A stretch of 64,000 bases of DNA from Chitinophagaceae bacterium UBA3961 (GTDB lineage: Bacteria; Bacteroidota; Bacteroidia; Chitinophagales; Chitinophagaceae), in contig DGDD01000145.1 in assembly GCA_002385265.1 (NCBI GenBank), positions 1 through 64,000 of the forward strand, in the 5' to 3' direction. The stretch's first letter is position 1. Each line of letters opens with the position of its first letter. Below are positions 17,240 through 41,275 of this stretch, in pieces. A program made the translations under genes and the position numbers. Below the pieces are notes generated by a model, which searched no databases, was not told the origin of the DNA, and saw only the letters and a list, made by a program, of their open reading frames with translations.

Positions 17240-17465
17240 TTAATAATTAACAATTAATAATTAATAATTGAACAGCCGGAGCCAATTAATAATTAATAAG
17301 TAATAATTAATAATTGAACAGCGGAGTACAGGAACGAGGAGACGAGGAAAGAGGGAGATGAATGAAAAACAGAGAGACTATCTGCGCCGCGAAAACGCTG
17401 CGTTCGCTGCGCCGCTGCGGTTAACCTAAAGCCTAATACCTAAGGCCTAATGCCTAAAACTTAAC
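17237..17465. repeat. Intergenic repeat block 4: modules A-A-C-B-E, beginning at the gpsA stop
   Basis: Directly from the gpsA stop codon: module A twice (AT-rich 'aattaataattaacaatt', each ending in gaacagccgg or gaacagcgg, to about 17322), module C in reverse (ggaacgaggagacgagg), module B in reverse (gcgaaaacgctgcgttcg, about 17383-17422), and module E (cctaaagcctaatacc, about 17424-17460). Confidence 0.75.
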
Positions 17466-25284: not shown

Positions 25285-25545
25285 GAGTTAAGAATTCACC
25301 GCAGGGGGCGCAAAGAGCGTGGAGTATTCGCGAAGATTGTTTGTTTTCTTTTACCGCGGCGGCGCAGCGAACGCAGCGTTAACACAGCGAATCCTTGCCC
25401 GAAGAATCTCCGCGGTGAATTATTTCACCACAGATATCCCAGATTAAAGCAGATTAACACAAATTAGCCCTTGATATTCAATCAACCTGACTGCCGGCTG
25501 TTTCATTATTAATTATTAATTCTTAATTATTAATTATTCGCTCCG
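25268..25545. repeat. Intergenic repeat block: modules A-B-B-D-A shared by two converging stop codons
   Basis: The block lies between the converging TonB receptor and cytochrome-like lipoprotein genes. It begins inside the receptor's last codons (attaagaattaag) and ends in a reverse module A (ctgccggctgtttcattatt, then attaattattaattc). That reverse A supplies the TAA stop of the gene at 25530. In between are B-type words (ccgcggcggcgcagcg, about 25353) and D (accacagatatccc ... agcagattaacac, about 25428-25470). Confidence 0.75.
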
Positions 25546-27738: not shown

Positions 27739-28820
27739 GTTGCAACAGTTGCTTCGATCGTTAGATCTACGGTAAATGAATTGGGGGTGTTGGTAATCGA
27801 CAACTGATGTTTTCCGGGATAAAGCAATTCCAGTCTTTTTTGGATATTGGAAATACCGGTACCGGTGCGTTCTGAACTCGACCGCAAATTGAATCTACGG
27901 TTACTAGTATGAAAGCGAATATCGTGCCCATTTCGTGTTAAAGAGATGATAATATTGGAGGATTCATGGTTGCTCACACCGTGTTTGAAAAGGTTTTCCA
28001 CAAAAGGAACGAAAATTAGCGGGGCGATTTGGATGTTTTCAAAGTCTCCTTCGATATTGAAATTGATAGTAGTGAGTTTGTTCAATCGTAATTTTTGCAA
28101 ATCAATGATATTTTGAATGCATTCTATTTCACGTTCTACCGGAACGGTTGGCTTTCCCATTTCGTCATTGATATAGCGCATGAGATTGGAGAGTTGCAAA
28201 ATAGCAGGAGCAGCTTTCTCCGATTTAGTGGAGGTGAGTGCGTATAAATTATTGAGCGTATTAAAGAGGAAATGCGGATTCACTTGCATTTTAAAGAAGG
28301 CCAATTCGGCGGCTGATTTTTCAGCGGCGGCTTGAAGTAAGCGACGTTCTGTTTGTTGCAATCTTCTAAAAATGGCAATGGCAGAGGAAGCTGTCCAAAT
28401 ACATATAAATAATATTAAACTCACAATATCGAGTTGTGGTTTGCCTCTTGGCATTGGTCCATTTGGAGGAGGAGGTACTTTGAATTGATTGGGTGATATA
28501 GGCGGAAAATTATTAGGATCTGCCCCCTGTTGCATTAAATGATCGAATGGTGTAGTATATAAAATGATCGATAAGAAAGCGCCGATACACAGCAAATAAA
28601 CTAAGATCAGCTTGGAAAGAAGTAGCCGAGGAAACAACAGCTCCAGATTGACATAGAATAACCCACAGTAGATGATGAAAAAAATCAAGAAGTGTACACT
28701 GAGCAAGTGCCTCCATTCAAAATGAGCGTTGCTATTTCCATAAATGAACAACTGTATCAAACTGAACAGCAGTAACCAGCCTAGTATGTGGAGCACCCAA
28801 ATAATCCGTTTAGAGAACAT
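27735..28820 (-). CDS. LytS-like sensor histidine kinase
   Basis: A 361-aa membrane kinase with four transmembrane helices (for example ILGWLLLFSLIQLFIYG, FLIFFIIYCGLFYVNLELL, LVYLLCIGAFLSIILYT and VSLILFICIWTASSAIAIF). The loop before the last helix is Pro-rich. The His_kinase domain follows, with phospho-acceptor motif FFKMQVNPHFLFNTLNNLYA and an ATPase part with PLIFVPFVENLFKHGV and GTGISNIQKRLELLY. Its partner is the LytTR regulator overlapping by 4 nt. There is no recognisable extracellular sensing domain, so the signal is probably sensed in or near the membrane. Confidence 0.94.
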   Translation of the reverse strand: MFSKRIIWVLHILGWLLLFSLIQLFIYGNSNAHFEWRHLLSVHFLIFFIIYCGLFYVNLELLFPRLLLSKLILVYLLCIGAFLSIILYTTPFDHLMQQGADPNNFPPISPNQFKVPPPPNGPMPRGKPQLDIVSLILFICIWTASSAIAIFRRLQQTERRLLQAAAEKSAAELAFFKMQVNPHFLFNTLNNLYALTSTKSEKAAPAILQLSNLMRYINDEMGKPTVPVEREIECIQNIIDLQKLRLNKLTTINFNIEGDFENIQIAPLIFVPFVENLFKHGVSNHESSNIIISLTRNGHDIRFHTSNRRFNLRSSSERTGTGISNIQKRLELLYPGKHQLSITNTPNSFTVDLTIEATVAT

Positions 28821-28974: not shown

Positions 28975-29020
28975 TTGTGATTACAATCACAATCGAATCA
29001 ACAAAGATTGGCTAACTTCA
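28975..29020 (+). promoter_or_regulatory. Crp/Fnr-type operator plus -7 box for the MFS gene
   Basis: A perfect palindrome TTGTGATTACAATCACAA (28975-28992) contains GTGA-N6-TCAC (28977-28990). Exactly 22 nt downstream is TAACTTCA (29013-29020), a partial TAnnTTTG box. It has the same layout as five other sites in the sulfur island. The box ends 5 nt before ATG 29026, so the message would be nearly leaderless. Confidence 0.65.
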
Positions 29021-29025
29021 TATTA

Positions 29026-30246
29026 ATGCAAGGATTGAGAGAAAATAAAGTCCAGTTTTGGCTGCTTGTTGCTGCTAACCTTTTTGTTGGTGCCGTACTC
29101 GGATCGGAAAGAGGCATTATGGGAGAAGTGGGCCTAAAGTGGTATGGAATTGAAAGTATTGTAGCTATTTCTAGTTTTGTAATGGCCTTTGGAATTTCAA
29201 AAGCAGTAGCGAATTTATTGGTGGGTAAGCTATTGCAGGTGTTTACCAGAAAAAAAGTGTTGCTAGTGGGGTGGGTGCTGGGTTTCCCCGTTCCTCTTTT
29301 ATTAATATACGCACCCAATTGGAATTGGGTTATTGTTGCTAATGTTCTATTAGGATTGAATCAGGGTATTGCATGGTCTAGCACAGTAATCATGAAAATT
29401 GATCTTGTTGGCACTAAAAATAGAGGTTTTGCGATGGGGCTTAATGAATTTGCCGGCTATCTGGCAATCGGTGTTTCAGCATATCTTTCAATGCTCTTGT
29501 TACATCAAACCAATTCACCATTTTGGAGCTTTCTACCTTCTCTTCTTGCTGTGTTATTGGGAATAACCCTAAGTACAGTATTCATTAAAGATACTCAGCA
29601 CCATGTAACTTACGAAGCTCGGAGTTCAAAAATTGCCTACTTGCGAAATGTATGGATTGATACAAGTTGGAAACATCAAAATATTGGTAGCACTACCATT
29701 AATGGCTTTTTGAATAATTTAAATGATGGTGCAATGTGGGTATTGGCTCCAACTATTCTGCTACAAAAAATGATCAGTAGCGAAGAAACTGCACTTGTAA
29801 TTGCACTTTATCCAATGGTTTGGGGAATATCGCAGCTTTTTACCGGAATGATTGGCGACCGATATTGCAAAAAACAATTGATTACTGCCGGAATGTTGCT
29901 ACAGTCTGCAGCACTCTTACTCTTTCTTTCAGTCAATGCATTCTGGTTATTACTTATTTCTGCAGTGTTACTGGGCTTAGGGACCGCGTTGGTTTATCCA
30001 AGTTTCCTCTCAACTATTGCAGAAAATACACATCCAGATCAAAGAGCTCAGGTGATGAGTATATTCAGATTTTGGCGCGATAGTGGCTACATTGCAGGAG
30101 CGGTAATGGTTGCTTTATTGATTCATTTCCTGAGCGCCGGCTATACACTTTTTATTATAGCCCTCTTAACGGGATTAGGAGGTGTAATAGCACAGCTAAG
30201 AATGTGTTGTACCATGAAAGTGCTTTGGAAGTCTGAGATCTGCTAA
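29026..30246 (+). CDS. MFS transporter (sulfur regulon member)
   Basis: An inner-membrane transporter of about 406 aa with some twelve helices and MFS loop signatures (KLLQVFTRKKVLLVGW between helices 2 and 3; DRYCKKQLI in the second half). The substrate is unknown. I start at ATG 29026; an upstream in-frame TTG (29008) lies between the operator and the -7 box and is unlikely. It is tied to the neighbouring sulfur genes by the same operator/promoter layout (28975-29020), not by cotranscription, since its strand is opposite. It may import or export a sulfur compound or metal under the same signal. Confidence 0.8.
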   Translation: MQGLRENKVQFWLLVAANLFVGAVLGSERGIMGEVGLKWYGIESIVAISSFVMAFGISKAVANLLVGKLLQVFTRKKVLLVGWVLGFPVPLLLIYAPNWNWVIVANVLLGLNQGIAWSSTVIMKIDLVGTKNRGFAMGLNEFAGYLAIGVSAYLSMLLLHQTNSPFWSFLPSLLAVLLGITLSTVFIKDTQHHVTYEARSSKIAYLRNVWIDTSWKHQNIGSTTINGFLNNLNDGAMWVLAPTILLQKMISSEETALVIALYPMVWGISQLFTGMIGDRYCKKQLITAGMLLQSAALLLFLSVNAFWLLLISAVLLGLGTALVYPSFLSTIAENTHPDQRAQVMSIFRFWRDSGYIAGAVMVALLIHFLSAGYTLFIIALLTGLGGVIAQLRMCCTMKVLWKSEIC

Positions 30247-30429
30247 TTTATTTTATTAGTTAGAAAATCGAAGAAAGGCCTTTTGATTTAGTTCTCATCA
30301 TGGTTAAAAACATGCACTTATCAACTTATTTCCAGTCGGACACGTTTGATAGATACAATATCGGAAGTAAGCACAAATCGACACATTTTAAAAGCAAAAC
30401 TATAGGGTACGGATTCGATAAGCTTGCAA

Positions 30430-32133
30430 CTAAGTAAACGAATAGTCAACGCCTGTTACTTGTGTTAGCAATGTTTGAGGCGCGTCCAAAATTTTTGCCG
30501 CCCTGGGTGGCGTTGGGGTAACGGGCGAATTGGAGGCAAGGTAATCACGCATTACTTGGTGCAGGGTATAAGTAGTGTTTTTTGCATTCTTCACGCCTTT
30601 GATTCGACAGAGCATATCGGCAGGGTCGCCATCGCGTTCGCAGGCACATACGCGGTAGGTTCTATCGAGGTTCAATGCTTCGCCACCCACTTTCACTTCT
30701 TGTACCCTTTTACCTTTTTCACCGAAGGCATTGAAGCTAATTTCCATTCCTTTGAACTTGATCAACCATCCACCAAATCGTTCGGATGCATTCGCGGCAA
30801 AAACATTGTTCAATTCTTTTTCCAACCATTCCCACAACTGTTTCCCAGTGATTTCTGCCGTTCTAACGGTGCTGTCTACAGGAAGCATATCGTAGATAAA
30901 TCCTTCAGTTATGGGAATATTTCCGGTACTATCGGGTGTTGTTCGGGGAGGGCAAAAGCGGAATCCATTTGAAAGTACAATGTCTACATCTTTCATTTGC
31001 CATTTCAGTGCATTCAAAATCATAGTGTCAATTGGATTCTCGACCACAAAATATCGGTACAATGGAATGGTACTATAGCCTACTATTTTGTGAATCGATT
31101 CGGCAAAAGGCGCTTCATTTTGAGCAATGAGTTCTTTCATTGCCTTGTCCTCTTTGTATTTCGATGCATCTATTTCAATCAATTCATAATCATCTTTTAC
31201 TACTTTGCCATTCTCCACAATAAGTTTCAGCTTTCCAACAAAGGAACCAAAAGCGCCTGGTTCTACAACTTTACAATACTTGCAAACAATGGGTTTACGC
31301 ACCCGTTCGTGTGTATCGCCTCCCAATATATAGTCTACTCCCGCTGTTTCAGACAAATTGGCCAAGTGAATTTGTTGCGACAGACCTAAATGCGCAATAA
31401 CCATAATGTATTCGCATTGTTCCTGATTTTTCAACACATCGATATAGTAAGCAATGTTTTCTTCCGGCTTTGTATAAATAATTCCTTTACTATAGTTCGG
31501 TGATTGTCGTAAAGGAACAAGATGATCTGTGTATCCAATAAAGCCAATTTTTACCCCTTTCACATTCCATATATGATAGGGTTGAAAAACAAGTTCCCCT
31601 TTTCTTCCTTCACCCAGATCGTGGTACATATTTGCACAAATTTTAGGTGCATGGAGTGACCCCAGAAGCTGTTGCATTGATTTCTTGCCATACACTACTT
31701 CCCAATTTCCCGGCAGGTAAAGATCGTACTGCAATTGATTCAAAATGGGTAACATGGCCTTGCCCGTAGTTTTTACGGAGAGCTCACTGCCTTGAAACAT
31801 ATCACCGGTATCGATTACAAAGGTATGGGCATTGTTCTTGCGTTCTTTATTGAGATAGGTGGCGAGATGTGCGTAGCCGCCTGTTTTCCTAAACACTGCT
31901 TGATTGTTTTCCCAGAAGAGTTCATCGTGCGGGTGAAGTTGACAGTGAATATCGGTTGTTTGTAGAATGGTCAATTCAAAATTTCCGCCAGTATGGATTG
32001 AATCATCTAAGTGACTCGAACTATCATTTTCCGTATTCGTTAAGTTGGCTGCACGGGTATCGAAACCCAAACCGAGTGCAGCAGAAAGCGTTCCTGCTTT
32101 GCGCAGAAAATCGCGTCTATTATTCGTTGGCAT
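30430..32133 (-). CDS. SoxB-like / 5'-nucleotidase family metallophosphoesterase with Tat signal
   Basis: A protein of about 567 aa with a twin-arginine signal (NNRRDFLRKAG). The metallophosphoesterase domain has TDIHCQLHPHDE, VIDTGDMFQGSEL, LPGNWEVVYG, VIAHLGLSQQ and LGGDTHERVRKP. A 5'-nucleotidase C-terminal domain follows (VLSNGFRFCPPRTT, ITGKQLWEWLE). The usual GNHE motif is GNWE. SoxB thiosulfohydrolases likewise carry WE here, which with the sulfur-gene setting favours SoxB-like over nucleotidase. The start is ATG 32133; the frame extends upstream into the next gene. It lies 13 nt after the TsdA-like cytochrome gene. No soxXA, soxYZ or soxCD is nearby. Confidence 0.8.
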   Translation of the reverse strand: MPTNNRRDFLRKAGTLSAALGLGFDTRAANLTNTENDSSSHLDDSIHTGGNFELTILQTTDIHCQLHPHDELFWENNQAVFRKTGGYAHLATYLNKERKNNAHTFVIDTGDMFQGSELSVKTTGKAMLPILNQLQYDLYLPGNWEVVYGKKSMQQLLGSLHAPKICANMYHDLGEGRKGELVFQPYHIWNVKGVKIGFIGYTDHLVPLRQSPNYSKGIIYTKPEENIAYYIDVLKNQEQCEYIMVIAHLGLSQQIHLANLSETAGVDYILGGDTHERVRKPIVCKYCKVVEPGAFGSFVGKLKLIVENGKVVKDDYELIEIDASKYKEDKAMKELIAQNEAPFAESIHKIVGYSTIPLYRYFVVENPIDTMILNALKWQMKDVDIVLSNGFRFCPPRTTPDSTGNIPITEGFIYDMLPVDSTVRTAEITGKQLWEWLEKELNNVFAANASERFGGWLIKFKGMEISFNAFGEKGKRVQEVKVGGEALNLDRTYRVCACERDGDPADMLCRIKGVKNAKNTTYTLHQVMRDYLASNSPVTPTPPRAAKILDAPQTLLTQVTGVDYSFT

Positions 32134-32146
32134 AGCAATCTTCGTT

Positions 32147-33142
32147 TTATTTTTTGGCTTGGGCTTTTCTTGCGTCGGCGATGGGTTGAAAAGGACCAAA
32201 CTTGTGTTGCGCTTCGTTGAATCCATCTGCATAAGGGCCAAATGGATGATCTATTGGTTTTTTAGAGATATCGGGCCAGTCTTTACTTAGATCTTTTGAA
32301 GGACGAGGTTGTGAATTTACAAATGCTGCGATGTTCCACGCGTCTTCATCTGAAAGAGAAGGGTTGTCGTGTGTTGCTTGTTGATAAGGCATATTGTCTT
32401 TAATATAGCCTGCCAAACGTGAGAGTCGAAAAAGCCCGGCTCCTGAATTGTAACTATGTTCACCCCATAATGGTGGATAGGTATAGGCGTTACCTGCTTC
32501 GTTTAGCATGCCTTGTCCATTTGCTCCGTGACAGGATTGGCATTTTTCAGCATAAGCCTGTCTCCCTTTAGTAGGGTCTGCTGCTACACTCAAGTATTTT
32601 AATTCACGAATACCTGTACCCTTTGGCTTGGTTCCTTTTGGCACTTCCTTTCCTAACCACTTCATATAAGTGAGTATGGCTGTCATCTCATTGCTATTGG
32701 TATCAATGGCTTGTCCATTCAAACTTCTTTCAAAGCAATCGTTCACGCGCTTCGACATCGATTCAACCGTTCCACTTCGATCTCTGAATTTGGGGTAGGT
32801 AGAAGCAACGGCTCCGTAATTGTTGCCCCAAGGTTGATTGCCTGCGGAGAGATGGCAATTTTGACAATTCATACCATTGGTAATTGCTGCAATGGTTCCC
32901 TTAGGACCGAAGTAATAAGAAGTATTGGCGATGAGGTCTTGACCATAAATAATCTGGGCTCTTTCTTCTTTTGTGAGACTATTGTCGAAGGATAGATCCG
33001 GTCCTATCCAATACTTTGAAGAAGTAGTATCTGCTGCAATTCTGTTTAGTACGTTTTTTGAAGGACGATTCATTACTTCAAACGAGCCCACTATTATTAA
33101 CAGCAATACAATATAGAGCGGCCAGTTTTCTTTCCATTTCAT
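32147..33142 (-). CDS. TsdA-like dihaem c-type cytochrome (thiosulfate dehydrogenase family)
   Basis: A 331-aa membrane-anchored periplasmic cytochrome with an N-terminal helix (PLYIVLLLIIVGSFEVM). Haem motifs are CQNCH (Cys93, Cys96, His97) and CQSCH (Cys200, Cys203, His204). Between them TVESMSKRVNDCFERSLNG matches the conserved TsdA segment. Cys135 there is the likely equivalent of the unusual cysteine haem ligand of thiosulfate dehydrogenases, though I rely on memory of the family for that. TsdA oxidises thiosulfate to tetrathionate or runs the reverse reaction. It is first in a two-gene unit with the SoxB-like gene, behind an operator/promoter at 33171-33213. Confidence 0.85.
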   Translation of the reverse strand: MKWKENWPLYIVLLLIIVGSFEVMNRPSKNVLNRIAADTTSSKYWIGPDLSFDNSLTKEERAQIIYGQDLIANTSYYFGPKGTIAAITNGMNCQNCHLSAGNQPWGNNYGAVASTYPKFRDRSGTVESMSKRVNDCFERSLNGQAIDTNSNEMTAILTYMKWLGKEVPKGTKPKGTGIRELKYLSVAADPTKGRQAYAEKCQSCHGANGQGMLNEAGNAYTYPPLWGEHSYNSGAGLFRLSRLAGYIKDNMPYQQATHDNPSLSDEDAWNIAAFVNSQPRPSKDLSKDWPDISKKPIDHPFGPYADGFNEAQHKFGPFQPIADARKAQAKK

Positions 33143-33170
33143 GTGAATAGCAATTTGAGTGAAGTGATGT

Positions 33171-33213
33171 AAAAATTACGAAATAATTTGTGAATGATGG
33201 TGACTGAAGTCAC
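33171..33213 (-). promoter_or_regulatory. Crp/Fnr-type operator plus -7 box for tsdA-soxB-like unit
   Basis: GTGACTGAAGTCAC (33200-33213) is a perfect palindrome of the form GTGA-N6-TCAC. On the minus strand TAATTTTT (33171-33178) lies 21 nt downstream and matches TAnnTTT. The ATG at 33142 is 28 nt further on. Confidence 0.7.
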
Positions 33214-33227
33214 TGATGTGAGAGGGA

Positions 33228-33460
33228 GGAGGGAGATAATTAAGAATTAATAATTAATAATGGAACAGCCGAAAACAGGAACGAGGATGAGAGGAGACGA
33301 GGATAGAGGAAATACAGAGAAAGTAGAGGGAGAAGAACAGGGGGATAAAGAATTAAGAAGTAATAATTAATAATGGAACAGCCGGAATACAGGAGGGAGG
33401 AGACGAGGAAGATGAATACTTTGCGGCTTCTTGGCGGGCTTTGCGCATTTTGCGGTGAAT
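33228..33460. repeat. Intergenic repeat block: A-C-A-C and degenerate B
   Basis: Between the TsdA-like gene and the YeeE/YedE pair: module A (taattaagaattaataatta ... ggaacagccg), reversed C (ggaacgaggatgagaggagac), a second A (33350-33382), more C, then a B-like 'tttgcggcttcttggcgggc'. No gene is seen. Confidence 0.7.
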
Positions 33461-33477
33461 AAAAGCACAATAAAAAA

Positions 33478-33493
33478 GGCCGAGGAATCGGCC
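33478..33493 (-). terminator. Terminator after the YeeE/YedE transporter pair
   Basis: GGCCGA (33478-33483), loop GGAA, TCGGCC (33488-33493). On the minus strand the stem is followed by TTTTTT. It lies 69 nt past the stop of the gene ending at 33563. Confidence 0.8.
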
Positions 33494-33562
33494 CTAATGA
33501 ATACACTAAACATTAATGAAAATGCACATGTACAAACACCATAGATATGAACTATAAAAATT

Positions 33563-34087
33563 TTAATGGGGCAGTTTATCGCGGAAATAACCGTAGGTCC
33601 AAGTACCGGCGATGGCACTGAGCACTACTACAGAAATTACCAAGGCACCAGTTCCAATTTGTGCAAAGAGTGGGCCGGGGCAAGCGCCTGTCACAGCCCA
33701 GCCAAGGCCAAACAATAAGCCTCCGTATATTTGGCCCTTATTGAACTTCTTTGGGTGAAATTCAATGGCTTCACCGTGTATGGTTTTTACCTTGAATTTT
33801 TTGATCAGCCATACTGAAATGATTCCTACTACTACAGCTGTTCCGATAACTCCATACATGTGAAAACTTTGCAAACGGAACATTTCTTGAATACGAAACC
33901 AAGAGATGATCTCTGCCTTTACAAAAACTACTCCGAAGATCAATCCTACGGCTGCATATTTGAAATTATACCACCAAGGGTGATGCATGTGTGATTCGTT
34001 CACACACATGGTATCGAGGGAGCGTACTTCAAAATCTAGTGCCTCTTGTTGAGGTGTGATGGTTGTTATGTTTACTTGAGTACTCAT
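33563..34087 (-). CDS. YeeE/YedE-type (DUF6691) half-transporter, second subunit
   Basis: A 174-aa membrane protein with about four helices (YAAVGLIFGVVFVKAEI, YGVIGTAVVVGIISVWLI, GGLLFGLGWAVTGACPGPLF and GALVISVVVLSAIAGTWTYG). The GACPGP motif with its cysteine is typical of the YeeE/YedE sulfur-transport superfamily, which includes the thiosulfate transporter TsuA. The N-terminal 40 residues are soluble. It follows the first half-transporter gene by 6 nt; a pair of short YeeE-like genes replacing one full-length protein is common in Bacteroidota and Proteobacteria. The likely cargo is thiosulfate or another sulfane-sulfur compound, by inference from family and context. Confidence 0.85.
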   Translation of the reverse strand: MSTQVNITTITPQQEALDFEVRSLDTMCVNESHMHHPWWYNFKYAAVGLIFGVVFVKAEIISWFRIQEMFRLQSFHMYGVIGTAVVVGIISVWLIKKFKVKTIHGEAIEFHPKKFNKGQIYGGLLFGLGWAVTGACPGPLFAQIGTGALVISVVVLSAIAGTWTYGYFRDKLPH

Positions 34088-34093
34088 GATAAA

Positions 34094-34663
34094 TTAAATG
34101 GTTAGTTTTAAAATAGAGGGAAGGATGAAATTGGCCATTGCAAAACCTCCAACCATGAACATGATTGTTGCAACTAAAGAAGGCCATTGCAAATCGCTTA
34201 GGCCCATAATAGCATGTCCGGAAGTACAACCTCCTGCATAACGCGCTCCAAATCCAACCAAGAAGCCACCACCTACCAGCATGATCAGCCCACGAATACT
34301 GAACAAGCTTTGCAAAGAGAACAATTCAGCGGGGAGCAAATTGGAGTTGTCGGTAATGCCATACGATTTCAGTTCAGCAGCCAACTCAGGATGCACAACC
34401 ACCGGATCAGGGTTTGCTAATAATTGCGCGGCAATGATTGCACCTGCAAAAATTCCACCCACAAAGAAGAAGTTCCAGATTTCTTTCTTCCAATCGTACT
34501 TGAAAAACTTGATGTTTGAGGGGAAACAAGCAGCACAGGCATGTCTGAGATTTGCAGAAATGCCAAAGTGTTTGTTACCGAGTAAAAGAAGCGCGGGTAC
34601 AATGAGTCCAATAATAGCACCGGCCACATACCAAGGCCAGGGTTGCTTGAGCATCTCGATCAT
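34094..34663 (-). CDS. YeeE/YedE thiosulfate/sulfur half-transporter, first subunit
   Basis: A membrane protein of about 189 aa with some five helices (YVAGAIIGLIVPALLLLG, FFVGGIFAGAIIAAQLL, GLIMLVGGGFLVGFGARYAGGC and LVATIMFMVGGFAMANFI). The conserved ARYAGGCTSGHAIMG carries the key cysteine of the family. I start at ATG 34663; an upstream in-frame TTG at 34687 lies inside the -7 box. It is the first gene of a two-gene unit with the DUF6691-type partner, and is driven from the Crp/Fnr-type promoter at 34685-34728. Confidence 0.88.
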   Translation of the reverse strand: MIEMLKQPWPWYVAGAIIGLIVPALLLLGNKHFGISANLRHACAACFPSNIKFFKYDWKKEIWNFFFVGGIFAGAIIAAQLLANPDPVVVHPELAAELKSYGITDNSNLLPAELFSLQSLFSIRGLIMLVGGGFLVGFGARYAGGCTSGHAIMGLSDLQWPSLVATIMFMVGGFAMANFILPSILKLTI

Positions 34664-34684
34664 AGCTAAATTGAGTTTAGAATA

Positions 34685-34728
34685 CAAATATGAGGGGATG
34701 GCAGGAGCTTATCGGTGATGATAGTCAC
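34685..34728 (-). promoter_or_regulatory. Crp/Fnr-type operator plus -7 box for the YeeE/YedE pair
   Basis: GTGATGATAGTCAC (34715-34728) fits GTGA-N6-TCAC. On the minus strand CATATTTG (34685-34692), a one-mismatch TAnnTTTG, lies exactly 22 nt downstream. ATG 34663 follows 21 nt later. Confidence 0.75.
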
Positions 34729-34789
34729 TTTGGTGCGATAAGGCGAATTATTAATTGGAAGCTGGGAAAATAATTTGTGAAGGTGGAAA

Positions 34790-34940
34790 TGAAATACAGA
34801 GAAAGAACAGGAGGAGGAAGAGGGGGAGGAATTAATAATTAATAATTAATAAGTACTAATTAAACAACCGGAATACGGGAAGGAGGATAAAGGGAATACT
34901 TTGCGAAACCTTTGCGGACTCTGCGGGCTTTGCGGTGAGT
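34790..34940. repeat. Intergenic repeat block: C-A-C-B
   Basis: Reversed C (tacagagaaagaacaggagg), module A (attaataattaataattaat ... aaacaaccgg), C again, then a B-like 'tttgcggactctgcgggc'. It lies downstream of the porin gene. Confidence 0.65.
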
Positions 34941-34945
34941 AAGCA

Positions 34946-36373
34946 CTAATAATGAAAATTCAATACCAAGTTCCACTGATCCATGTTCACCTTGTTGATC
35001 ACGTATTTATTGTTGTTATGAGTATGACCCTGACTTTCCTTGTTCACATACAATACTTGCAGATCCCAGCCTTTGAAGAAACCTTGCAATTCATAACGTA
35101 AGTCGATGTTTAGTTGCGAATACGAAGGCATTCCATATTTATTCAATTCAAAATTGGTAGGATCGGGCAGTTGGTAATAGCCCCAAGCAGCTTGTATCTT
35201 CAATGGTTGTTTTGGGATTGCATATCCTCCTTTTACAACGTAAGCATGTACATTGCCTAAACCTTCGTTTCTCTCACGTGGAAGAAAAGTAAAGAAGGGA
35301 TCTCTCCCCCACTCTCTTGGCATCAAGTACCTTCCATGTTTTGTAATTCTATTGTAGTTAGCAGAAAACTGCCAGCGCTTGTTCTCCCAACCAAATTTAG
35401 CACCGTAGGTGTGCGATGAGGCGCCTTTTTGAAAGTAGGTCTTCGTTGGATCCTCGTTACCACCGTGATGAATAATTTGTTGATGGATGGTTTGAAAACC
35501 TGCGATGAGCTTTGATTTATTCTTCAAAACACGAGAGTAATCAGCCTGAAAAAACACAGAATTGAAAATATTCTCTGTGAATTGGTTCCACAATTGAAGT
35601 TTGATTTCCTTCCCCACTTCTTGTGAAATGCCTCCTAAAAGAATTCCTTTCGACTCAAGATTACCTTTGTATTGCGATTTTGTTCCATCTTGGTTAACTC
35701 CGGATGGATAGAGCCCTATTGATTCACCAATATTGTACCACTCAACAGTGCTTCTTGGAGAGAGTTGATAGATATAGGCCGCTTCAATTTTTGTCTTCCT
35801 TTTCTTGTAAATACCATCTACTCCTTCTATTTCGGTGGGGCGCATTCTTCCGTCTTGCAGGTTAATGAACGGTGTATTCATAAGCTGCCGTCCAACAGTA
35901 AGGGTGATATTGTATTTGGAATATCGTATGAAAAGTTCTTCGAGACGATCAATGTTCTTTGTATTTGAAGGATCAGTAATGTCGTAAAGGCCTATTTCGT
36001 AGCGATTCAGTTGCTTTGTACTTGAATCGGGAATGGTTAAATTAGAAGACCCCACGTTAAAAACAAAGAAGCCACTAACGCCAAATTGGAATCCATGAAA
36101 AAGAGCCGTATGGTATTGAAGTCCGCCTCCTGCTGCTTGAGCATGGTAATCACTCAGGCCTTTTTCATTGTTCGTATTCATATAAAAATATCGAAAATGG
36201 CCGGTGAACTTTCCTCGACTAAAGGCCGACAGAAACGAGGTGGTATCTTGTGATAGCGTTTTCTCTCCATTCCAAGTTTTGGGATGTTCGTTAAGTTCTT
36301 GATGTTGCGCATGCGAGTAAAGGGCAATAAAAAGTAAGGCCCCTGTACTCACTAGTTTTCTAATGAAATACAT
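34946..36373 (-). CDS. OprD-like outer-membrane porin
   Basis: A 475-aa protein with a signal peptide (ALLFIALYSHAQ). A large beta-barrel has FTGHFRYFYMNTNNEKGLSD near the start, VTVGRQ-like 'LTVGRQLMNTPFINLQDGRM', and strands such as KIEAAYIYQLSPRSTVEWYN and WQFSANYNRITKHGRYLMP. It ends in a phenylalanine/His/Tyr barrel terminus (LVLNFHY). The layout fits the OprD/OprB-like porin group. The gene lies in the sulfur island 33 nt after a small membrane protein and the rhodanese gene, so it may admit thiosulfate or another sulfur anion; this is inference from position. Confidence 0.8.
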   Translation of the reverse strand: MYFIRKLVSTGALLFIALYSHAQHQELNEHPKTWNGEKTLSQDTTSFLSAFSRGKFTGHFRYFYMNTNNEKGLSDYHAQAAGGGLQYHTALFHGFQFGVSGFFVFNVGSSNLTIPDSSTKQLNRYEIGLYDITDPSNTKNIDRLEELFIRYSKYNITLTVGRQLMNTPFINLQDGRMRPTEIEGVDGIYKKRKTKIEAAYIYQLSPRSTVEWYNIGESIGLYPSGVNQDGTKSQYKGNLESKGILLGGISQEVGKEIKLQLWNQFTENIFNSVFFQADYSRVLKNKSKLIAGFQTIHQQIIHHGGNEDPTKTYFQKGASSHTYGAKFGWENKRWQFSANYNRITKHGRYLMPREWGRDPFFTFLPRERNEGLGNVHAYVVKGGYAIPKQPLKIQAAWGYYQLPDPTNFELNKYGMPSYSQLNIDLRYELQGFFKGWDLQVLYVNKESQGHTHNNNKYVINKVNMDQWNLVLNFHY

Positions 36374-36405
36374 AGCAATGAAATAAAAAAATAAAAGCAG
36401 TTGTG

Positions 36406-36594
36406 TTACTTTCTGAATAAACTGAAAACCAGGTACCCCATTACTCCGAAATAAACGGTACTATTTAGGGGCTTAGAAGTGATCATACAAGTGCCGGAAC
36501 TACAGCCTATGAATTTCCAATAGAAAAACCCTGCAATCATGCCTACACCTGCCCCAATGAGGGGTATTTTATTTTTGAGAAGTACTTGTTTCAT
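36406..36594 (-). CDS. Small DUF6132-like membrane protein with a CSSGTC motif
   Basis: A 62-aa protein with two predicted helices (IPLIGAGVGMIAGFFYWKFIG and VYFGVMGYLVFSLF). Between them is GCSSGTCMITSKP, a cysteine pair in a loop. Small proteins with this CxxxxC loop occur near rhodanese genes in Bacteroidota; I assign DUF6132 from length and motif with moderate confidence. It sits 5 nt after the rhodanese gene and 33 nt before the porin gene, so all three are probably one transcript. It could be a sulfane-sulfur relay or a membrane anchor, but nothing in the sequence proves a function. Confidence 0.7.
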   Translation of the reverse strand: MKQVLLKNKIPLIGAGVGMIAGFFYWKFIGCSSGTCMITSKPLNSTVYFGVMGYLVFSLFRK

Positions 36595-36599
36595 GAATA

Positions 36600-36881
36600 C
36601 TAGTTGAGGTAAAAAGCCACGTCATCAATGCCGCCTCCATTGTAAATATTCTCTATCCTCAATATGCGCAAATAAGCGATGGCTTGTCCGCTTCTGTTGC
36701 CACTTCTGCAATAGAATACAACATTCTTCGATCCAAGTCCGGGGATCTCACTATAGCGATAAGGAATTTGATCAAGTGGAATATTGATGGCGCCTTCAAT
36801 ATGACCCATTTGGTATTCGGGCGGTGTTCTCACATCAACAAGCAATGTATCGGGACTTTTAAGTATTTCTGAAATTGTCAT
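36600..36881 (-). CDS. Single-domain rhodanese (sulfurtransferase)
   Basis: A 93-aa cytoplasmic rhodanese domain. Seen are DTLLVDVRTPPEYQMGHIEG, the active-site loop FYCRSGNRSGQA (catalytic Cys in CRSGNRS) and a short C-terminus. Rhodaneses of this type carry a persulfide on the active cysteine and pass sulfane sulfur to acceptors. It is encoded in a row with the DUF6132-like protein (5 nt) and the porin. It lies just downstream of the CstB-like gene, from which it is separated by a strong hairpin terminator at 36901-36920. No separate promoter with the regulon operator was seen for it. Confidence 0.92.
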   Translation of the reverse strand: MTISEILKSPDTLLVDVRTPPEYQMGHIEGAINIPLDQIPYRYSEIPGLGSKNVVFYCRSGNRSGQAIAYLRILRIENIYNGGGIDDVAFYLN

Positions 36882-36900
36882 AAGAATATTTTTAAAAAAA

Positions 36901-36920
36901 GGGAAGACGGCTGTCTTCCC
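36901..36920 (-). terminator. Terminator after the CstB-like gene
   Basis: GGGAAGAC, loop GGCT, GTCTTCCC: an 8-bp perfect stem followed on the minus strand by a long T run. It lies 35 nt past the stop of the gene ending at 36955 and would limit readthrough into the rhodanese-DUF6132-porin row. Confidence 0.8.
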
Positions 36921-36954
36921 TCTTAACCTATATACCTTAACCTGAAACTAATTT

Positions 36955-38376
36955 TTACAACATGGTAGAGGGGCAAACATAATCCGTAACAGTAAATTTA
37001 CCCGACTCTTTAATGGCTTTGAAGCCGCCTTTTACATCAATCAAATTATCGAAACCACGAGCTTTCAAAATAGATGTAAAGATCATTGAACGATAGCCAC
37101 CCGCGCAATGCACGTAGTAGGTTTTGTCTATGTTAATTTGCGCCATGGCGTCGTTGATGAAATCGAGTGGCGCATTTTCTGCAGAAACGATGTGTTCGCT
37201 GAAGTATTCGCTTTTCTTTCTCACATCTAACACATTTGCTTGTGGATTTGTATCCATGATTGCAGCAAGTTCTTCAGCTGAAATACTCTTGATAGAGTCT
37301 ACTTCTTTGTCGGCATTTTTCCAGGCATCAAATCCGCCCTCTAAATATCCGATCACATAGTCGTAGCCTACTCTACTCAAACGCGTTACCACTTCTTCTT
37401 CGGTACCCGGCTCGCAGATGAGTAATATTTCTTGTTTGATATCCGGAATCATTGCACCCACCCAAGGGGCAAAATTTCCTTCTAAACCAATATTAATTGA
37501 ATTGGGCACAAAACCTTGGGCAAATTTCTGAGCAGCACGAACATCCAACATCAGAGCGCCTGTTTCATTGGCTGCTGTTTCAAAAGCGTTGGGGCTCATG
37601 GCATGGAGACCACGTTCCAATACTTTATCGATGCTATCATATCCTTGAATATTCATCATCACGTTCAAAGGGAAATAAGCCGGAGGAGCAACCAATCCGG
37701 TTGTTACTTCTTTGATGAACTCTTCCTTCGTCATATCGGCACGGAGTGCATAGTTCACTTGCTTTTGATGCCCGAGTAGATCTGTTGTTTCCTTACTCAT
37801 GTTTTTACCACAGGCCGAACCGGCTCCGTGAGCGGGATATACAACGATATCGTTAGACAAAGGCATGATCTTATTTCTCAAAGAATCGAAGAGATGGCCT
37901 GCTAAAATTTCCTGTGTAAGGTCTGCTTTTACTTTCTGAGCAAGATCGGGACGACCTACATCACCAATAAAGAGGGTATCGCCACTAAACAATCCAACCT
38001 CTTTGCCTGTTTCATCACTCAATAAATAACAAGTACTTTCCATTGTATGTCCTGGAGTATGCAACACTTTAATGGTAGCATTTCCTACTTTTAAAATCTC
38101 ACCGTCTTTAGCGGAATGAAATTCAAAATTGGGTTTTGCATTCGGGCCGTAAACAATAGGAGCCCCTGTTTTTTTAGAAAGATCGAGGTGACCTGAAACG
38201 AAATCGGCGTGAAAATGCGTCTCCAATACGTACTTGATCTTTGCATTGTTTTTTGCAGCGCGATCAATGTACGGTTGCACTTCTCTTAATGGATCGATGA
38301 TCACTGCTTCACCATTGCTTTCGATATAATAAGCTCCTTGAGCTAAACATCCGGTATAAATCTGTTCTATTTTCAT
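36955..38376 (-). CDS. CstB-like persulfide dioxygenase-rhodanese fusion
   Basis: A protein of about 473 aa. The N-terminal metallo-beta-lactamase fold (about residues 1-230) has the ETHE1-type motif ETHFHADFVSGH (His54, His56, Asp58) with His110, Asp133 and His183 as further candidate ligands. Two rhodanese-like domains follow. The first has Cys321 in LLICEPGTEEE, and the second has active-site Cys424 in YYVHCAGGYRS. Cys189 (HGAGSACGKNMS) sits where CstB has a conserved extra thiol. CstB-type enzymes oxidise persulfides to sulfite and thiosulfate. ATG 38376 is used; a TTG at 38397 lies inside the -7 box. Confidence 0.9.
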   Translation of the reverse strand: MKIEQIYTGCLAQGAYYIESNGEAVIIDPLREVQPYIDRAAKNNAKIKYVLETHFHADFVSGHLDLSKKTGAPIVYGPNAKPNFEFHSAKDGEILKVGNATIKVLHTPGHTMESTCYLLSDETGKEVGLFSGDTLFIGDVGRPDLAQKVKADLTQEILAGHLFDSLRNKIMPLSNDIVVYPAHGAGSACGKNMSKETTDLLGHQKQVNYALRADMTKEEFIKEVTTGLVAPPAYFPLNVMMNIQGYDSIDKVLERGLHAMSPNAFETAANETGALMLDVRAAQKFAQGFVPNSINIGLEGNFAPWVGAMIPDIKQEILLICEPGTEEEVVTRLSRVGYDYVIGYLEGGFDAWKNADKEVDSIKSISAEELAAIMDTNPQANVLDVRKKSEYFSEHIVSAENAPLDFINDAMAQINIDKTYYVHCAGGYRSMIFTSILKARGFDNLIDVKGGFKAIKESGKFTVTDYVCPSTML

Positions 38377-38394
38377 TTCTGATATTTTATAAAT

Positions 38395-38438
38395 CAAAGT
38401 TGAGAGAATATTAATATTGCATCAATGACAAAAGTCAC
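38395..38438 (-). promoter_or_regulatory. Crp/Fnr-type operator plus -7 box for the CstB-like gene
   Basis: ATGACAAAAGTCAC (38425-38438) is a one-mismatch GTGA-N6-TCAC. On the minus strand CAACTTTG (38395-38402) is a one-mismatch TAnnTTTG exactly 22 nt downstream. ATG 38376 follows after 18 nt. Confidence 0.7.
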
Positions 38439-38442
38439 ACAG

Positions 38443-39252
38443 TTAATGTCCGCCTGAAGGGAACATCAATTCTTTTATGATGATGTAGATTCCCATCACT
38501 AACACAAACCACCCAAAGCCCTTTTTCAATCCATCGGCAGACACTTTTTTACTCATGGCATTGCCAATAAAAATTCCAAGAACTGCTAGTGCTGTAACAC
38601 TTAGTAAGAGTGTCCAGTCCATGGTTTGCTTTCCAAGATCTCCTGTGAAGCCGATAAGCGATTTGGCTGCGATAATAAGTAAGGATGTTCCTACTGCTTG
38701 TTTCATTGGAAGTTTACTCAATAATACGAGTGCGGGAATAATCAAGAAACCGCCACCTGCTCCTACTAATCCCGTTAGTGTACCCACAACCAGTCCTTCC
38801 AATAAAATCAAAGGATAATTAAATGTTTGCACCGTACTTTCTGCTTCTTCTTGCTTCTTTTTTGATCGTATCATAGAAACAGATGCGAACACCATGAGAA
38901 TGGCAAAAAGCAACATCATAAGCAGGCCTTTGGTAATAGCAATACCGGCGATATGTCCCATTTCTTGGGGGATAGCCGGTACAATAAAGGCGCGCGTCGC
39001 AAAAACAGCGGCGATTGAAGGAACTCCAAAAATCAAGGCTGTTTTTAGGTTTACCTCACCGGATTTGTATTTCGGCAAGGCTCCCACTAAACTGGTGGCA
39101 CCAACAATAAACAGAGAATAAGCTGTTGCAATTACCGGATTCACTCCAAACAAGTACACCAATACCGGAACAGTAAGAATAGAGCCTCCCCCGCCAATCA
39201 AACCAAGCGAAACACCAATAATCAACGATGCTAAGTAACCAACTATGACCAT
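38443..39252 (-). CDS. TauE/SafE family sulfite/anion exporter
   Basis: An inner-membrane protein of about 269 aa with some eight helices. It shows the two-fold repeated glycine-rich starts typical of TauE/SafE: LIIGVSLGLIGGGGSILTVP in the first half and GTLTGLVGAGGGFLIIPALV in the second. Family members export sulfite or sulfoacetate-type organosulfur anions, and tauE accompanies cstB and sqr in Staphylococcus aureus. That supports export of sulfite made by the CstB-like enzyme. I start at ATG 39252, because the upstream TTG 39273 lies in the -7 box. It is driven from the operator/promoter at 39271-39314, and the next gene downstream (CstB-like) has its own. Confidence 0.88.
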   Translation of the reverse strand: MVIVGYLASLIIGVSLGLIGGGGSILTVPVLVYLFGVNPVIATAYSLFIVGATSLVGALPKYKSGEVNLKTALIFGVPSIAAVFATRAFIVPAIPQEMGHIAGIAITKGLLMMLLFAILMVFASVSMIRSKKKQEEAESTVQTFNYPLILLEGLVVGTLTGLVGAGGGFLIIPALVLLSKLPMKQAVGTSLLIIAAKSLIGFTGDLGKQTMDWTLLLSVTALAVLGIFIGNAMSKKVSADGLKKGFGWFVLVMGIYIIIKELMFPSGGH

Positions 39253-39270
39253 TTCTATAAGTTTAGGATG

Positions 39271-39314
39271 CAAATCTGACTAAAAATTACGCGGAATTCT
39301 GTGACGATTATCAC
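39271..39314 (-). promoter_or_regulatory. Crp/Fnr-type operator plus -7 box for tauE
   Basis: GTGACGATTATCAC (39301-39314) fits GTGA-N6-TCAC. On the minus strand CAGATTTG (39271-39278) is a one-mismatch TAnnTTTG box exactly 22 nt downstream. The site lies 11 nt beyond the stop of the Crp/Fnr regulator gene. Confidence 0.75.
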
Positions 39315-39325
39315 TAAGGTCGGAA

Positions 39326-39967
39326 TTATTCCGGTCTTACCCATTCAAAGGAGTTTCGATGGATAACGATCCATCCATTTCGCTCCATTTTCTTCATTAA
39401 TCGACTTATGACTTCGCGAGAAGAATTCAAATCGTTGGCGATGTCTTGGTGCGTTAATTTGACGGTTTTACCAAACTGCTTCACTTGATTTTTTAGGTAG
39501 AATTCCAATCGCTCGTCCATGTTCTTAAAAGCGATTTCGTTGACGGTGCGAATGAGTTCATCGTATCGCGCACGGTAGGTACGAATTACGAAATAGTGCC
39601 AGCTTTTGTAGGCGCCGAGCCATTTATCCATAAAAGAAAGCGGAATAGTCAATACCGTGATGTCGGTTAGGGCCTTTGCAATAACTTGGCTTGTTTCCAG
39701 TTGAAATGAACACACCATTGAAACGGCGCAAGCTTGTCCGGGTTGGATGTTGTAAAGAAAATATTCATTACCATCATTGTCTTCTTGATACAATTTCACG
39801 ATGCCTTCCATCACTAAAACCGTTGACCGAATGGCTTGACCTATACGAAGAATGGTAGTACCTGCTTCGTATTGTTTTATTTCTCCGTGTTCTAATAGTT
39901 CTTCATAAAGTGCTAATTCAAGTCCGGGAAACAGTTCCTGTAGCGAATTCTCATTGATATTTTGCAT
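39326..39967 (-). CDS. Crp/Fnr family transcriptional regulator, likely activator of the sulfur regulon
   Basis: A protein of about 213 aa with an N-terminal cyclic-nucleotide-binding-like beta barrel, a long dimer helix and a C-terminal winged helix (KLTHQDIANDLNSSREVISR). The recognition helix has Arg184, Glu185 and Arg189 (REVISR), the RExxxR pattern by which CRP reads GTGA half-sites. That agrees with the GTGA-N6-TCAC sites around it. Two cysteines (Cys80, Cys86 in ACAVSMVC) could sense persulfide or redox state, which is speculation. ATG 39967 is used rather than TTG 39991. It is divergent from the SQR gene. Confidence 0.88.
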   Translation of the reverse strand: MQNINENSLQELFPGLELALYEELLEHGEIKQYEAGTTILRIGQAIRSTVLVMEGIVKLYQEDNDGNEYFLYNIQPGQACAVSMVCSFQLETSQVIAKALTDITVLTIPLSFMDKWLGAYKSWHYFVIRTYRARYDELIRTVNEIAFKNMDERLEFYLKNQVKQFGKTVKLTHQDIANDLNSSREVISRLMKKMERNGWIVIHRNSFEWVRPE

Positions 39968-40018
39968 GATAGGTAATTGATCAAAAAACAAATATTTGAT
40001 TTATAAAAAAGATACTCT

Positions 40019-40062
40019 GTGATAATAGTCACCGCCGGTTGTTAAAATCTTGCCTAACTGTG
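40019..40062 (+). promoter_or_regulatory. Crp/Fnr-type operator plus -7 box for the SQR gene
   Basis: GTGATAATAGTCAC (40019-40032) fits GTGA-N6-TCAC. TAACTGTG (40055-40062), a one-mismatch TAnnTTTG, lies exactly 22 nt downstream, and ATG 40079 follows after 16 nt. The site also sits 51 nt upstream of the divergent Crp/Fnr gene and could autoregulate it. Confidence 0.75.
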
Positions 40063-40078: not shown

Positions 40079-41275
40079 ATGCCTACATCACATCAAATCC
40101 TAATTATAGGTGGCGGAAATGCCGGAGCTTCGGTTGCTGCCAAGCTTCTACTTCAAAACAAATCGTTAGACATTGCCATTGTAGATCCTGCTGATAAGCA
40201 TTTCTATCAACCTGCCTGGACATTGGTTGGATCGGGAGTTTTTGATATTCGCAAAACCATGCGAAATGAAGCGGATGTTATTCCGAAAGGATGCAAATGG
40301 ATCAAAGAAAAAGTGATCGGTTTTCAACCCGAGCAAAATCGAGTAACATTGGCTACAGGCGATACTATACAGTATCAATACTTGGTGGTAGCTGCAGGTA
40401 TTCAATTGAATTGGGATGAGATCAAAGGATTGAAAGAAACCTTGGGCAAAAACAATGTTTGTTCGAACTATAGTTATGATCATGCACCTTATACTTTCGA
40501 ATGTATCAAGAACTTTAAAGGCGGAAAAGCCATTTTCCACAATCCAACAACGCCTGTAAAATGCGGTGGTGCCCCACATAAAATAATGTACATGGCAGCC
40601 GATTATTTCCGCAGACATGGGGTATTGAAGAATTCAAACATTCAATATTGGAGTGGCGCTGCGAAATTGTTTGCGGTAGCTAAATATGAAAAAACGCTTT
40701 TAAAAGTGTGTGAACGGGCGAATATTGATTTGAATTTCAATGTAAAATTGGTGGCGGTAGATGGCCCTGCGAAGAAAGCAACTTTTATAGGAGTGGGCGA
40801 ATCGAACAAAGATCAGGAGTATGTGGTTGATTTCGATATGATACATGTAACCCCACCACAGGGGGCACCAGACTTTATCAAACAAAGTCCGCTTGCCAAT
40901 GCAGCCGGATGGGTAGACGTAGACAAGTACAGTTTGCAACACAATAAGTACCCCAATGTATTTTCACTAGGAGATGCTGCAGCTTTGCCCACTAGTAAAA
41001 CCGGTGCGGCCATTCGCAAGCAAGCTCCGGTGGTAGTAGGAAATTTACTGGAAGCAATTCAAAACCAAGCCCTCACTCATAAATACGACGGGTACACGAG
41101 TTGCCCATTGGTAACAGGTTACGGTAAACTCGTGCTCGCAGAATTTGACTATGAAAACAAACCCAAAGAAACCTTTCCATTCGACCAAAGCAAGGAACGT
41201 TGGAGTATGTACATTTTGAAGCGTTATATTTTGCCTTGGATGTATTGGGGAAGGATTCTGCCGGGGAAAGCGTGA
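40079..41275 (+). CDS. Sulfide:quinone oxidoreductase, SQOR type
   Basis: A 398-aa membrane-associated flavoprotein that oxidises sulfide and passes electrons to quinone. The FAD-binding start is QILIIGGGNAGASVAAKLL. The two redox cysteines appear as Cys162 in PVKCGGAPHKIMYMA and Cys342 in YDGYTSCPLVTGYGKLVLAE. Both segments closely resemble mitochondrial-type SQOR (type II). The C-terminus is short and amphipathic (RYILPWMYWGRILPGKA), fitting monotopic membrane binding. The product would be a low-molecular-weight persulfide, the substrate of the CstB-like enzyme. It is behind a Crp/Fnr-type operator at 40019. Repeat module A begins a few nt past the stop. Confidence 0.92.
   Translation: MPTSHQILIIGGGNAGASVAAKLLLQNKSLDIAIVDPADKHFYQPAWTLVGSGVFDIRKTMRNEADVIPKGCKWIKEKVIGFQPEQNRVTLATGDTIQYQYLVVAAGIQLNWDEIKGLKETLGKNNVCSNYSYDHAPYTFECIKNFKGGKAIFHNPTTPVKCGGAPHKIMYMAADYFRRHGVLKNSNIQYWSGAAKLFAVAKYEKTLLKVCERANIDLNFNVKLVAVDGPAKKATFIGVGESNKDQEYVVDFDMIHVTPPQGAPDFIKQSPLANAAGWVDVDKYSLQHNKYPNVFSLGDAAALPTSKTGAAIRKQAPVVVGNLLEAIQNQALTHKYDGYTSCPLVTGYGKLVLAEFDYENKPKETFPFDQSKERWSMYILKRYILPWMYWGRILPGKA

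Follow-up and report, generated by a model that had tools for sequence, protein, structure and literature searches.

Which regulator controls the sulfide and persulfide genes of the Bacteroidota, and to what signal does it respond? The question is raised by a group of sulfur genes in a 64,000-nt stretch of DNA from Chitinophagaceae bacterium UBA3961 (positions 1 to 64,000 of contig DGDD01000145.1, our C221, in assembly GCA_002385265.1), referred to here as the window. The assembly comprises 4.12 Mb in 304 contigs and is 95.7 % complete. An island of 11,088 bp in the window (positions 28,975 to 40,062) includes a gene for a Crp/Fnr regulator, and the palindromic site GTGA-N6-TCAC, the dyad, recurs upstream of its genes at a near-constant distance from a -7-like promoter box. 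We consider it probable that this regulator is a class II activator of a Bacteroidota sulfide/persulfide regulon, with sulfane sulfur as the most likely inducer acting via the cysteines C80 and C86, though whether sulfane sulfur switches the regulator on through this pair is, taken as a step by itself, an even call. With a regulator, a precise promoter rule, a regulon predicted across the genome and two cysteines that can be mutated, the control of Bacteroidota sulfide genes becomes directly testable.

Promoters in the island

An earlier note on this DNA, made from the letters alone, had listed six promoters with a dyad, and all six sites were recovered. The dyad is exact at 28977..28990 (plus strand), ahead of a major facilitator superfamily (MFS) transporter gene and the weakest promoter of the set, at 33200..33213 (minus strand), ahead of a gene for a cytochrome with a SoxA/TsdA domain and the SoxB-like gene after it, at 34715..34728 (minus strand), ahead of YeeE/YedE, at 39301..39314 (minus strand), ahead of TauE, and at 40019..40032 (GTGATAATAGTCAC), between the divergent genes for the regulator and for sulfide:quinone oxidoreductase (SQR) and placed for the promoters of both. 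It has one mismatch at 38425..38438 (minus strand), ahead of the gene for a protein with a metallo-beta-lactamase (MBL) domain and rhodanese stretches (CstB-like). The -7-like boxes that follow are TAACTTCA for MFS (29013..29020, plus strand), AATTTTTA for the cytochrome gene (33170..33177, minus strand), CATATTTG for YeeE/YedE (34685..34692, minus strand), CAACTTTG for the CstB-like gene (38395..38402, minus strand), CAGATTTG for TauE (39271..39278, minus strand) and TAACTGTG for SQR (40055..40062, plus strand), the last 22 nt past its dyad. A spacing of 22 nt, with 21 nt for the cytochrome (TsdA) promoter, had been proposed; 22 holds for all six, and the cytochrome promoter, which has an alternative box, TAATTTTT, at spacing 21, fits 22 equally well.

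A seventh promoter, overlooked earlier, faces the regulator gene (ATG at 39967): its box, AATATTTG (39989..39996, minus strand), is also 22 nt past the 40019 dyad, which faces both ways, and the arrangement is a candidate for autoregulation. The candidate promoters in the island are hence seven, those of the six named genes and that of the regulator gene, and in all seven the box comes downstream of the dyad, with no overlap.

The earlier view that the layout is unlikely to arise by chance stands, as five exact dyads are found in the 11,088 bp where 0.156 would be expected (Poisson P 7e-7, for island limits set by the finding itself). All five lie outside open reading frames (ORFs) of at least 100 aa, compared with 13 of the 52 dyads seen elsewhere in the genome (57 of the 58 exact dyads in the genome were examined). 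The dyad signal resides in position and spacing.

Conservation of the layout in relatives

A survey of 147 genomes of the family found a match to the regulator at 1e-30 in 108 and none in 39. The 108 were divided into 57 with a clade A regulator (at least 41 % identity) and 51 with clade B only, the border having been set in this analysis; one border genome (G144, 41 %) is counted with clade A in the genome motif counts and, as L065, with clade B in the locus and protein counts. Near the 83 clade A regulator loci there were 95 distinct exact dyads and 16 copies of the reversed pattern. In 49 of the 190 flanks of these loci a TTTG begins 26 nt past TCAC, the mean for any other offset being 1.1. 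These 49 promoters were fetched via the regulator and not via the motif, and the positions scored in them were unselected. Position 5 of the dyad is Y in all 49 (T in 30, C in 19) and position 10 is R in all 49 (G in 27, A in 22), so that the refined dyad is GTGAY-N4-RTCAC. Position 2 of the box is A in 44 of the 49 and its first letter is C in 27, G in 11, T in 9 and A in 2; hence, though -7-like boxes are present at spacing 22, nAnnTTTG describes them better than the TAnnTTTG proposed earlier. A previous logo built from 79 promoters, which included loci fetched via the motif (with A required in the box) and clade B, was replaced by this set.

The layout is also found in other families, in 21 loci where the half site is often GTTAC. 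Spacing 22 accounts for 24 sites that match 6 or more of the 8 dyad letters, 22 of them matching 7 or more, and at spacings 16–21 and 23–28 none of the 21 loci has a site with 7. The strict GTGA-N6-TCAC occurs at only one site in the 21 loci, and the spacing signal is visible there only when imperfect half sites such as GTTAC are allowed.

Similarity of the promoters by chance or shared ancestry would also produce recurrent sites, and related loci are not independent: the 21 loci from other families are mostly from one genus-level group and thus do not amount to 21 independent observations. We nonetheless give this explanation a negligible probability. The spacer carries no more than 0.22 bit per position in the 49 promoters while dyad and box are fixed, spacer identity averages 56 % in 14 promoters from other families, and the layout recurs at different genes, on either strand and on distal contigs.

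Dependence on the regulator

The exact motif at spacing 22 was found 103 times, against 11 for the control, in the 57 clade A genomes, 22 times against 4 in the 51 genomes with clade B only, and 6 times against 3 in the 39 genomes with no regulator match. The MBL-rhodanese gene (cstB) has a homologue in 37 of those 39. When 30 of these cstB loci were taken, 29 of which have enough upstream sequence, the layout was present in none of the 29, whereas it precedes 35 of 41 cstB genes near clade A regulators (Fisher P 4e-14, uncorrected for relatedness). It also precedes all 32 tauE genes near clade A regulators and three of the four SQR genes. With the same loose box criterion, 18 other spacings pooled gave 27 for cstB and 21 for tauE, or approximately 1.5 and 1.2 each. 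Of the 108 genomes in which the regulator has a match, 21 have an SQR gene (E<=1e-80); of the 39 others, none does. At 14 of these 21 SQR genes, that of the window included, a dyad with at least 7 of 8 letters precedes a box of the TA or TTTG type by 22 nt, 46–52 nt upstream of the start; the best of spacings 21–23 was taken for each site. The site, its spacing, its conservation and its dependence on the presence of the regulator can thus be read directly from these comparisons.

Predicted targets elsewhere

A scan of the whole assembly for the dyad and NANNTTTG at spacing 22, with at most one mismatch, returned 17 places against 5 for the reversed pattern. Six of the 17 are in the island and 11 elsewhere. 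The outcome favours the proposal of the earlier note, which had called for such a scan, although only three of the seven intergenic places outside the island are plainly linked to sulfur or thiols, preceding genes for a rhodanese (C2), a thioredoxin (C11) and a YgaP-like membrane protein (C38). The remaining four precede genes for an HMA-domain protein, by eye a P-type ATPase, where the dyad and an ORF of 138 aa in the opposite direction overlap (C23), a c-type cytochrome lipoprotein (C72), a lipoprotein (C118) and an unknown protein (C216). A site at spacing 21 lies ahead of a gene for a DUF983-like protein (C186), which falls just below the Pfam cut-off (22.1 against 22.6). A site between hemH-like and hemA-like genes (labels by eye; C112) fits the refined dyad but lacks a box at spacing 22 in both directions and was rejected.

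In other genomes, 32 exact places were found in 29 loci. Eighteen precede sulfur-type genes, namely tauE (six), rhodanese (five), cstB (two), thioredoxin (two) and, for the rest, yeeE, SQR or YgaP-like genes, and others precede genes for OsmC-like (two), TolC-like (two), HMA (one) and DUF983-like (one) proteins. These labels were given by eye from the first 70 residues, and ten were scanned with Pfam: the thioredoxin, YgaP-like and HMA proteins and three rhodaneses were above the cut-off, a fourth rhodanese and OsmC were below it, and no DUF983-like or TolC-like match was found in the scan of these first 70 residues. The distal targets in the assembly itself (rhodanese, thioredoxin, YgaP-like, HMA, DUF983-like) are of the same kinds as genes that carry sites in other genomes, and the DUF983-like pair (C186 and L203) shares 54 % identity across 65 residues.

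Two side observations concern these lists. A TolC-like gene with the layout was seen in two genomes (L223 and L224, by eye; that of L223 has no Pfam match in its first 70 residues). An HMA-domain protein, probably a copper ATPase, has the same layout in two genomes (L110 and L206), hinting at a link between copper and sulfide.

The regulator protein

The regulator gene (39326..39967, minus strand) encodes a protein of 213 aa that is a Crp/Fnr member by domains and fold, with a cNMP-binding-type domain and a Crp helix-turn-helix (HTH; Pfam PF00027, PF13545 and PF00325), and its AlphaFold2 model has a mean confidence score (pLDDT) of 93.3. The RExxxR pattern of a GTGA-type recognition helix, attributed to it in the earlier note, is indeed there: the helix reads SSREVISR, and SREV[IV][ST]R is kept in all 62 clade A proteins. 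Near relatives in named genomes are found at 14 loci, 11 of which carry Chitinophagales or Chitinophagaceae names (Flavihumibacter, Foetidibacter, Niastella, Chitinophaga, two Terrimonas and five metagenome-assembled genomes, MAGs); the other three are two 'Bacteroidetes' MAGs and a Sediminibacterium MAG.

Many Crp/Fnr proteins recognise GTGA half sites, so a different regulator might read the dyads, the island protein being a bystander. The completeness of the assembly (95.7 %) leaves some room for this, as do 13 Pfam matches below the HTH_Crp_2 cut-off that were not individually read. However, three proteins of the assembly are above that cut-off and only the regulator has RExxSR, the helices of the other two being GTATESLIRTL and GSTRQTVTTML; moreover, the motif counts track the presence of an island-type regulator. 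We regard a different reader as very improbable. That the island's own regulator reads the dyads is supported, because the layout is conserved in relatives, the motif is linked to the regulator and there is no second RExxSR protein above the cut-off.

The protein shares 21 % identity with Escherichia coli CRP and does not reach the NCBIfam equivalog for CRP (51.6 bits against a cut-off of 266). When the two are aligned, G71, E72 and R82 of CRP, cAMP-contacting residues of its cassette, stand opposite A81, a gap and E91, respectively. The only cysteines of the window regulator are C80 and C86, and the four cysteines of the FNR [4Fe-4S] type are thus not present. In clade A, C80 is kept in 62 of 62 proteins and C86 in 61 of 62, and 56 of the 62 have exactly these two cysteines, leaving no FNR-type four-cysteine cluster within one chain. 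Both are also kept in clade B (20/20 and 19/20), where 18 of 20 proteins have a third cysteine beside C86. The conservation of the pair, like the lack of a second RExxSR protein above the cut-off, is a direct observation. In the model, C80 is just ahead of and C86 inside a helix at 81–89, the least confident block (pLDDT 77), at roughly the position of the phosphate-binding cassette in CRP. A conserved cysteine pair in the effector domain is what a thiol-based persulfide sensor would be expected to have.

The pair extends beyond the proteins with the RE helix. The clade B regulators (L065–L084), at about 30–40 % identity, keep C-x5-C and many have an SRVVISR helix, and in 3dv8 of Eubacterium rectale cysteines align at both places (C-x5-C). 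As a separate observation, several clade B regulator genes have one or two rhodanese genes as neighbours, and the dyad-26-TTTG layout is present in some of these cases.

The inducing signal

Sulfane sulfur read by the cysteines would be the simplest link between such a regulator and its sulfur targets. The same regulator and regulon might, though, answer to another signal such as O2, NO, a metal, heme or a nucleotide, the cysteines serving as ligands or structurally. Crp/Fnr proteins respond to many signals, genes for an HMA protein and for cytochromes have sites, and the cysteine pair is also present in the clade B regulators and in 3dv8, all of which suits this alternative. We think it unlikely, if well worth keeping in mind, given that most clade A proteins have two cysteines only, with no FNR-type cluster per chain, that the CRP residues G71, E72 and R82 are not kept in the regulator, and that many of the targets are sulfide or persulfide genes.

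In the boldest reading, a C-x5-C dithiol bridged by persulfides has taken the place of the cyclic-nucleotide cassette, and the regulator would then represent a new class of reactive-sulfur sensor, a Crp/Fnr activator that drives a sulfide/persulfide/thiosulfate regulon across the Bacteroidota. We put this reading as a whole forward tentatively, at slightly worse than an even chance. Clade B and 3dv8-like kin possibly do likewise elsewhere.

Proposed mechanism

In the mechanism that we favour, the regulator, dimeric by analogy, with a CRP-type helix and no signature of a cAMP or FNR-type cofactor, would bind GTGAY-N4-RTCAC centred near -41.5 and activate transcription as a class II activator, the other conserved element of the target promoters being the nAnnTTTG -7 box 22 nt downstream. 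The dyad centre stands 29.5 nt from the box with little variation, as would suit a class II activator in contact with RNA polymerase, and together with the Bacteroidota -7 box convention, which we assume here, this distance would put the dyad centre near -41.5. As judged from their families, SQR would turn sulfide into sulfane sulfur, the MBL-rhodanese would turn persulfide into sulfite, TauE would export the sulfite, and YeeE/YedE with the pair of SoxA/TsdA-like and SoxB-like proteins would serve the uptake and oxidation of thiosulfate. The regulator would also drive its own gene plus the distal rhodanese, thioredoxin and YgaP-like genes, and sulfane sulfur would act through C80/C86, at about the place of the phosphate-binding cassette in CRP.

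A number of points weigh against this mechanism. Binding, activation, the start site and the sensing chemistry are inferred. The dyad alone is a weak signal: with one mismatch it is not enriched across the window (22 observed, 18.3 expected), and genome-wide the exact form is only weakly enriched (58 against 45 for the reversed control). Near clade A regulators just 10 of 63 regulator promoters show the layout, and the counts for other genes are 11 of 29 for yeeE, three of six for SoxB-like genes, one of four for tsdA and zero of two for MFS, low figures that may in part come from genes within operons. Seven of the 21 SQR genes lack the layout. The MFS promoter of the island matches three of the five letters A/TTTG and its box ends 5 nt before the ATG, making MFS the weakest member of the regulon. 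Four of the 11 places outside the island are inside ORFs (C177, C191, C209 and C256), the lipoprotein, c-type cytochrome, HMA protein and unknown protein have no clear link to sulfur, and eight of the 32 exact places in other genomes have no clear target or are within ORFs. As to the sensor, C80 and C86 lie six residues apart, the latter in a helix of the model, and a simple disulfide could not span this distance unless sulfur bridged it or the protein unfolded locally; clade B proteins with SRVVISR keep the cysteines, which shows that cysteines and RE helix are not strictly tied. Finally, no -33 signal was detected in the regulon promoters, and the 123 TAnnTTTG promoters without a dyad used for comparison likewise show no TTG peak at -33. 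This comparison hence says nothing about activation.

The failure of the -33 comparison to separate an activator from a repressor leaves room for the dyad to block the promoter and for sulfur to release it, and CstR and BigR, in the literature passages discussed below, are repressors. We judge this arrangement improbable. Repressor sites usually tolerate shifts in position, whereas a near-constant spacing of 22 nt from dyad to box is what contact with RNA polymerase needs, and the seven dyads in the window lie upstream of the box and not over it. Within the limits of sequence evidence, the class II interpretation has good support. It would mean that a Crp/Fnr mode of control has been turned to persulfide chemistry, and the sensor site may be new.

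Comparison with known regulators

At E. coli class II promoters the CRP dyad is centred at -41.5. The island system is like these in the Crp/Fnr fold, the RExxxR helix, the GTGA-N6-TCAC dyad and the use of one dyad per promoter, set a fixed distance ahead of the core elements, and unlike them in the low identity of the regulator to CRP, the loss of the cAMP-contacting residues, the Bacteroidota-type nAnnTTTG box, the sulfur targets and the pair of cysteines in the effector domain.

The cst operon includes genes for an MBL-rhodanese, TauE and SQR. In Staphylococcus, control of the cst genes is persulfide-responsive and exerted by CstR via two cysteines (passages of PMC9774590 and PMC9918477), CstR being an all-helical tetrameric repressor of the CsoR family (passages of PMC9774590). 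The island regulator is by contrast a Crp/Fnr protein of unrelated fold and a predicted activator. The contrast with CsoR-type control drawn in the earlier note agrees with the domain matches: a Pfam scan of 11 island proteins gave no CsoR-type match and none is among the Pfam and NCBIfam hits of the regulator.

In the parts of the literature examined, persulfide regulators are of the CsoR, ArsR or sigma-54 type, or are general ones (MarR, OxyR). SqrR, BigR, SoxR and sHdrR respond to sulfide or sulfane sulfur and control sulfur-oxidation genes (PMC5823870 and PMC12423496, and for SqrR PMC9774590); unlike the island protein they are ArsR-type repressors. FisR is an activator of sulfide-oxidising genes, going by a reference title quoted in PMC9918477, and depends on sigma-54. 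No domain of that type is present in the island regulator. A Crp-like protein of Acinetobacter baumannii is likewise of the Crp family and has a cysteine that is persulfidated in sulfide-treated cells, with no consequence reported in the passages of PMC7315123 seen. That protein is, however, 50 % identical to E. coli Crp and is not tied to a sulfur regulon in those passages. The Crp/Fnr genes in the portion of PMC8014003 available lie beside denitrification clusters and not sulfur genes, and the passages drawn from PMC9774590, PMC9918477 and PMC7315123 describe no Crp/Fnr protein controlling sulfide oxidation. For Bacteroidota, the portion of PMC12345210 consulted reports that persulfide dioxygenase (PDO) and SQR transcripts rise with sulfide, and the words 'regulator' and 'crp' are absent from its main text. 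Our literature search found no account of the control of sulfide genes in Bacteroidota, a weak negative as the search partly missed the slash spelling 'Crp/Fnr'.

Gene content and further observations

The genes of the island and SQR, identified here by domain matches, are as follows. The MFS transporter gene (29026..30246, plus strand; PF07690) is followed on the minus strand by that for a SoxB-like protein of the 5'-nucleotidase family (30430..32130), which was absent from the gene names of the earlier note. Its best NCBIfam match is TIGR04486 (SoxB), at 235.9 bits well below the equivalog cut-off of 550. As it comes after the gene for the c-type cytochrome with the SoxA/TsdA domain (32147..33142, minus strand; PF21342 and PF00034), a reduced Sox-type pathway for thiosulfate is suggested. 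Next, all on the minus strand, are the second YeeE/YedE half (DUF6691; 33563..34087; PF20398 and PF04143), the YeeE/YedE half-transporter (34094..34663; PF04143), an OprD-like outer-membrane porin (34946..36373; PF03573, E 3.3e-7), a single-domain rhodanese (36600..36881; PF00581), the CstB- or persulfide-dioxygenase-like protein (36955..38376; PF00753 and PF00581 twice) and the TauE/SafE family exporter (38443..39252; PF01925, E 3.5e-45). The CstB-like protein has the layout of that group, with PF00753 at 14–180 and then tandem PF00581, the best at 366–457, and its activity is predicted. Beyond the regulator gene lies that for the SQR, which is type III-like (40079..41275, plus strand) and has SQR_III_seleno as best NCBIfam match, at 260.1 bits below the cut-off of 525.

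Between the porin and rhodanese genes is an ORF of membrane type (36406–36594, minus strand) encoding 62 aa with two cysteines (FIGCSSGTC). A LytTR-like response regulator and a histidine kinase (labels by eye) are encoded at 27037–28820, directly upstream of the MFS gene and divergent from it.

A sixth exact dyad of the window, at 25415, is outside the island, mismatches the refined dyad, lacks a good box and was dropped. It is close to one of the copies of AACAGCCGG, which occur in both orientations at 17271, 21692, 25494, 33377, 41313, 41359, 42963, 47754 and 53624, in several places next to stretches of AT-rich ATTAATAATTAATAATG (by eye), and look like an intergenic repeat.

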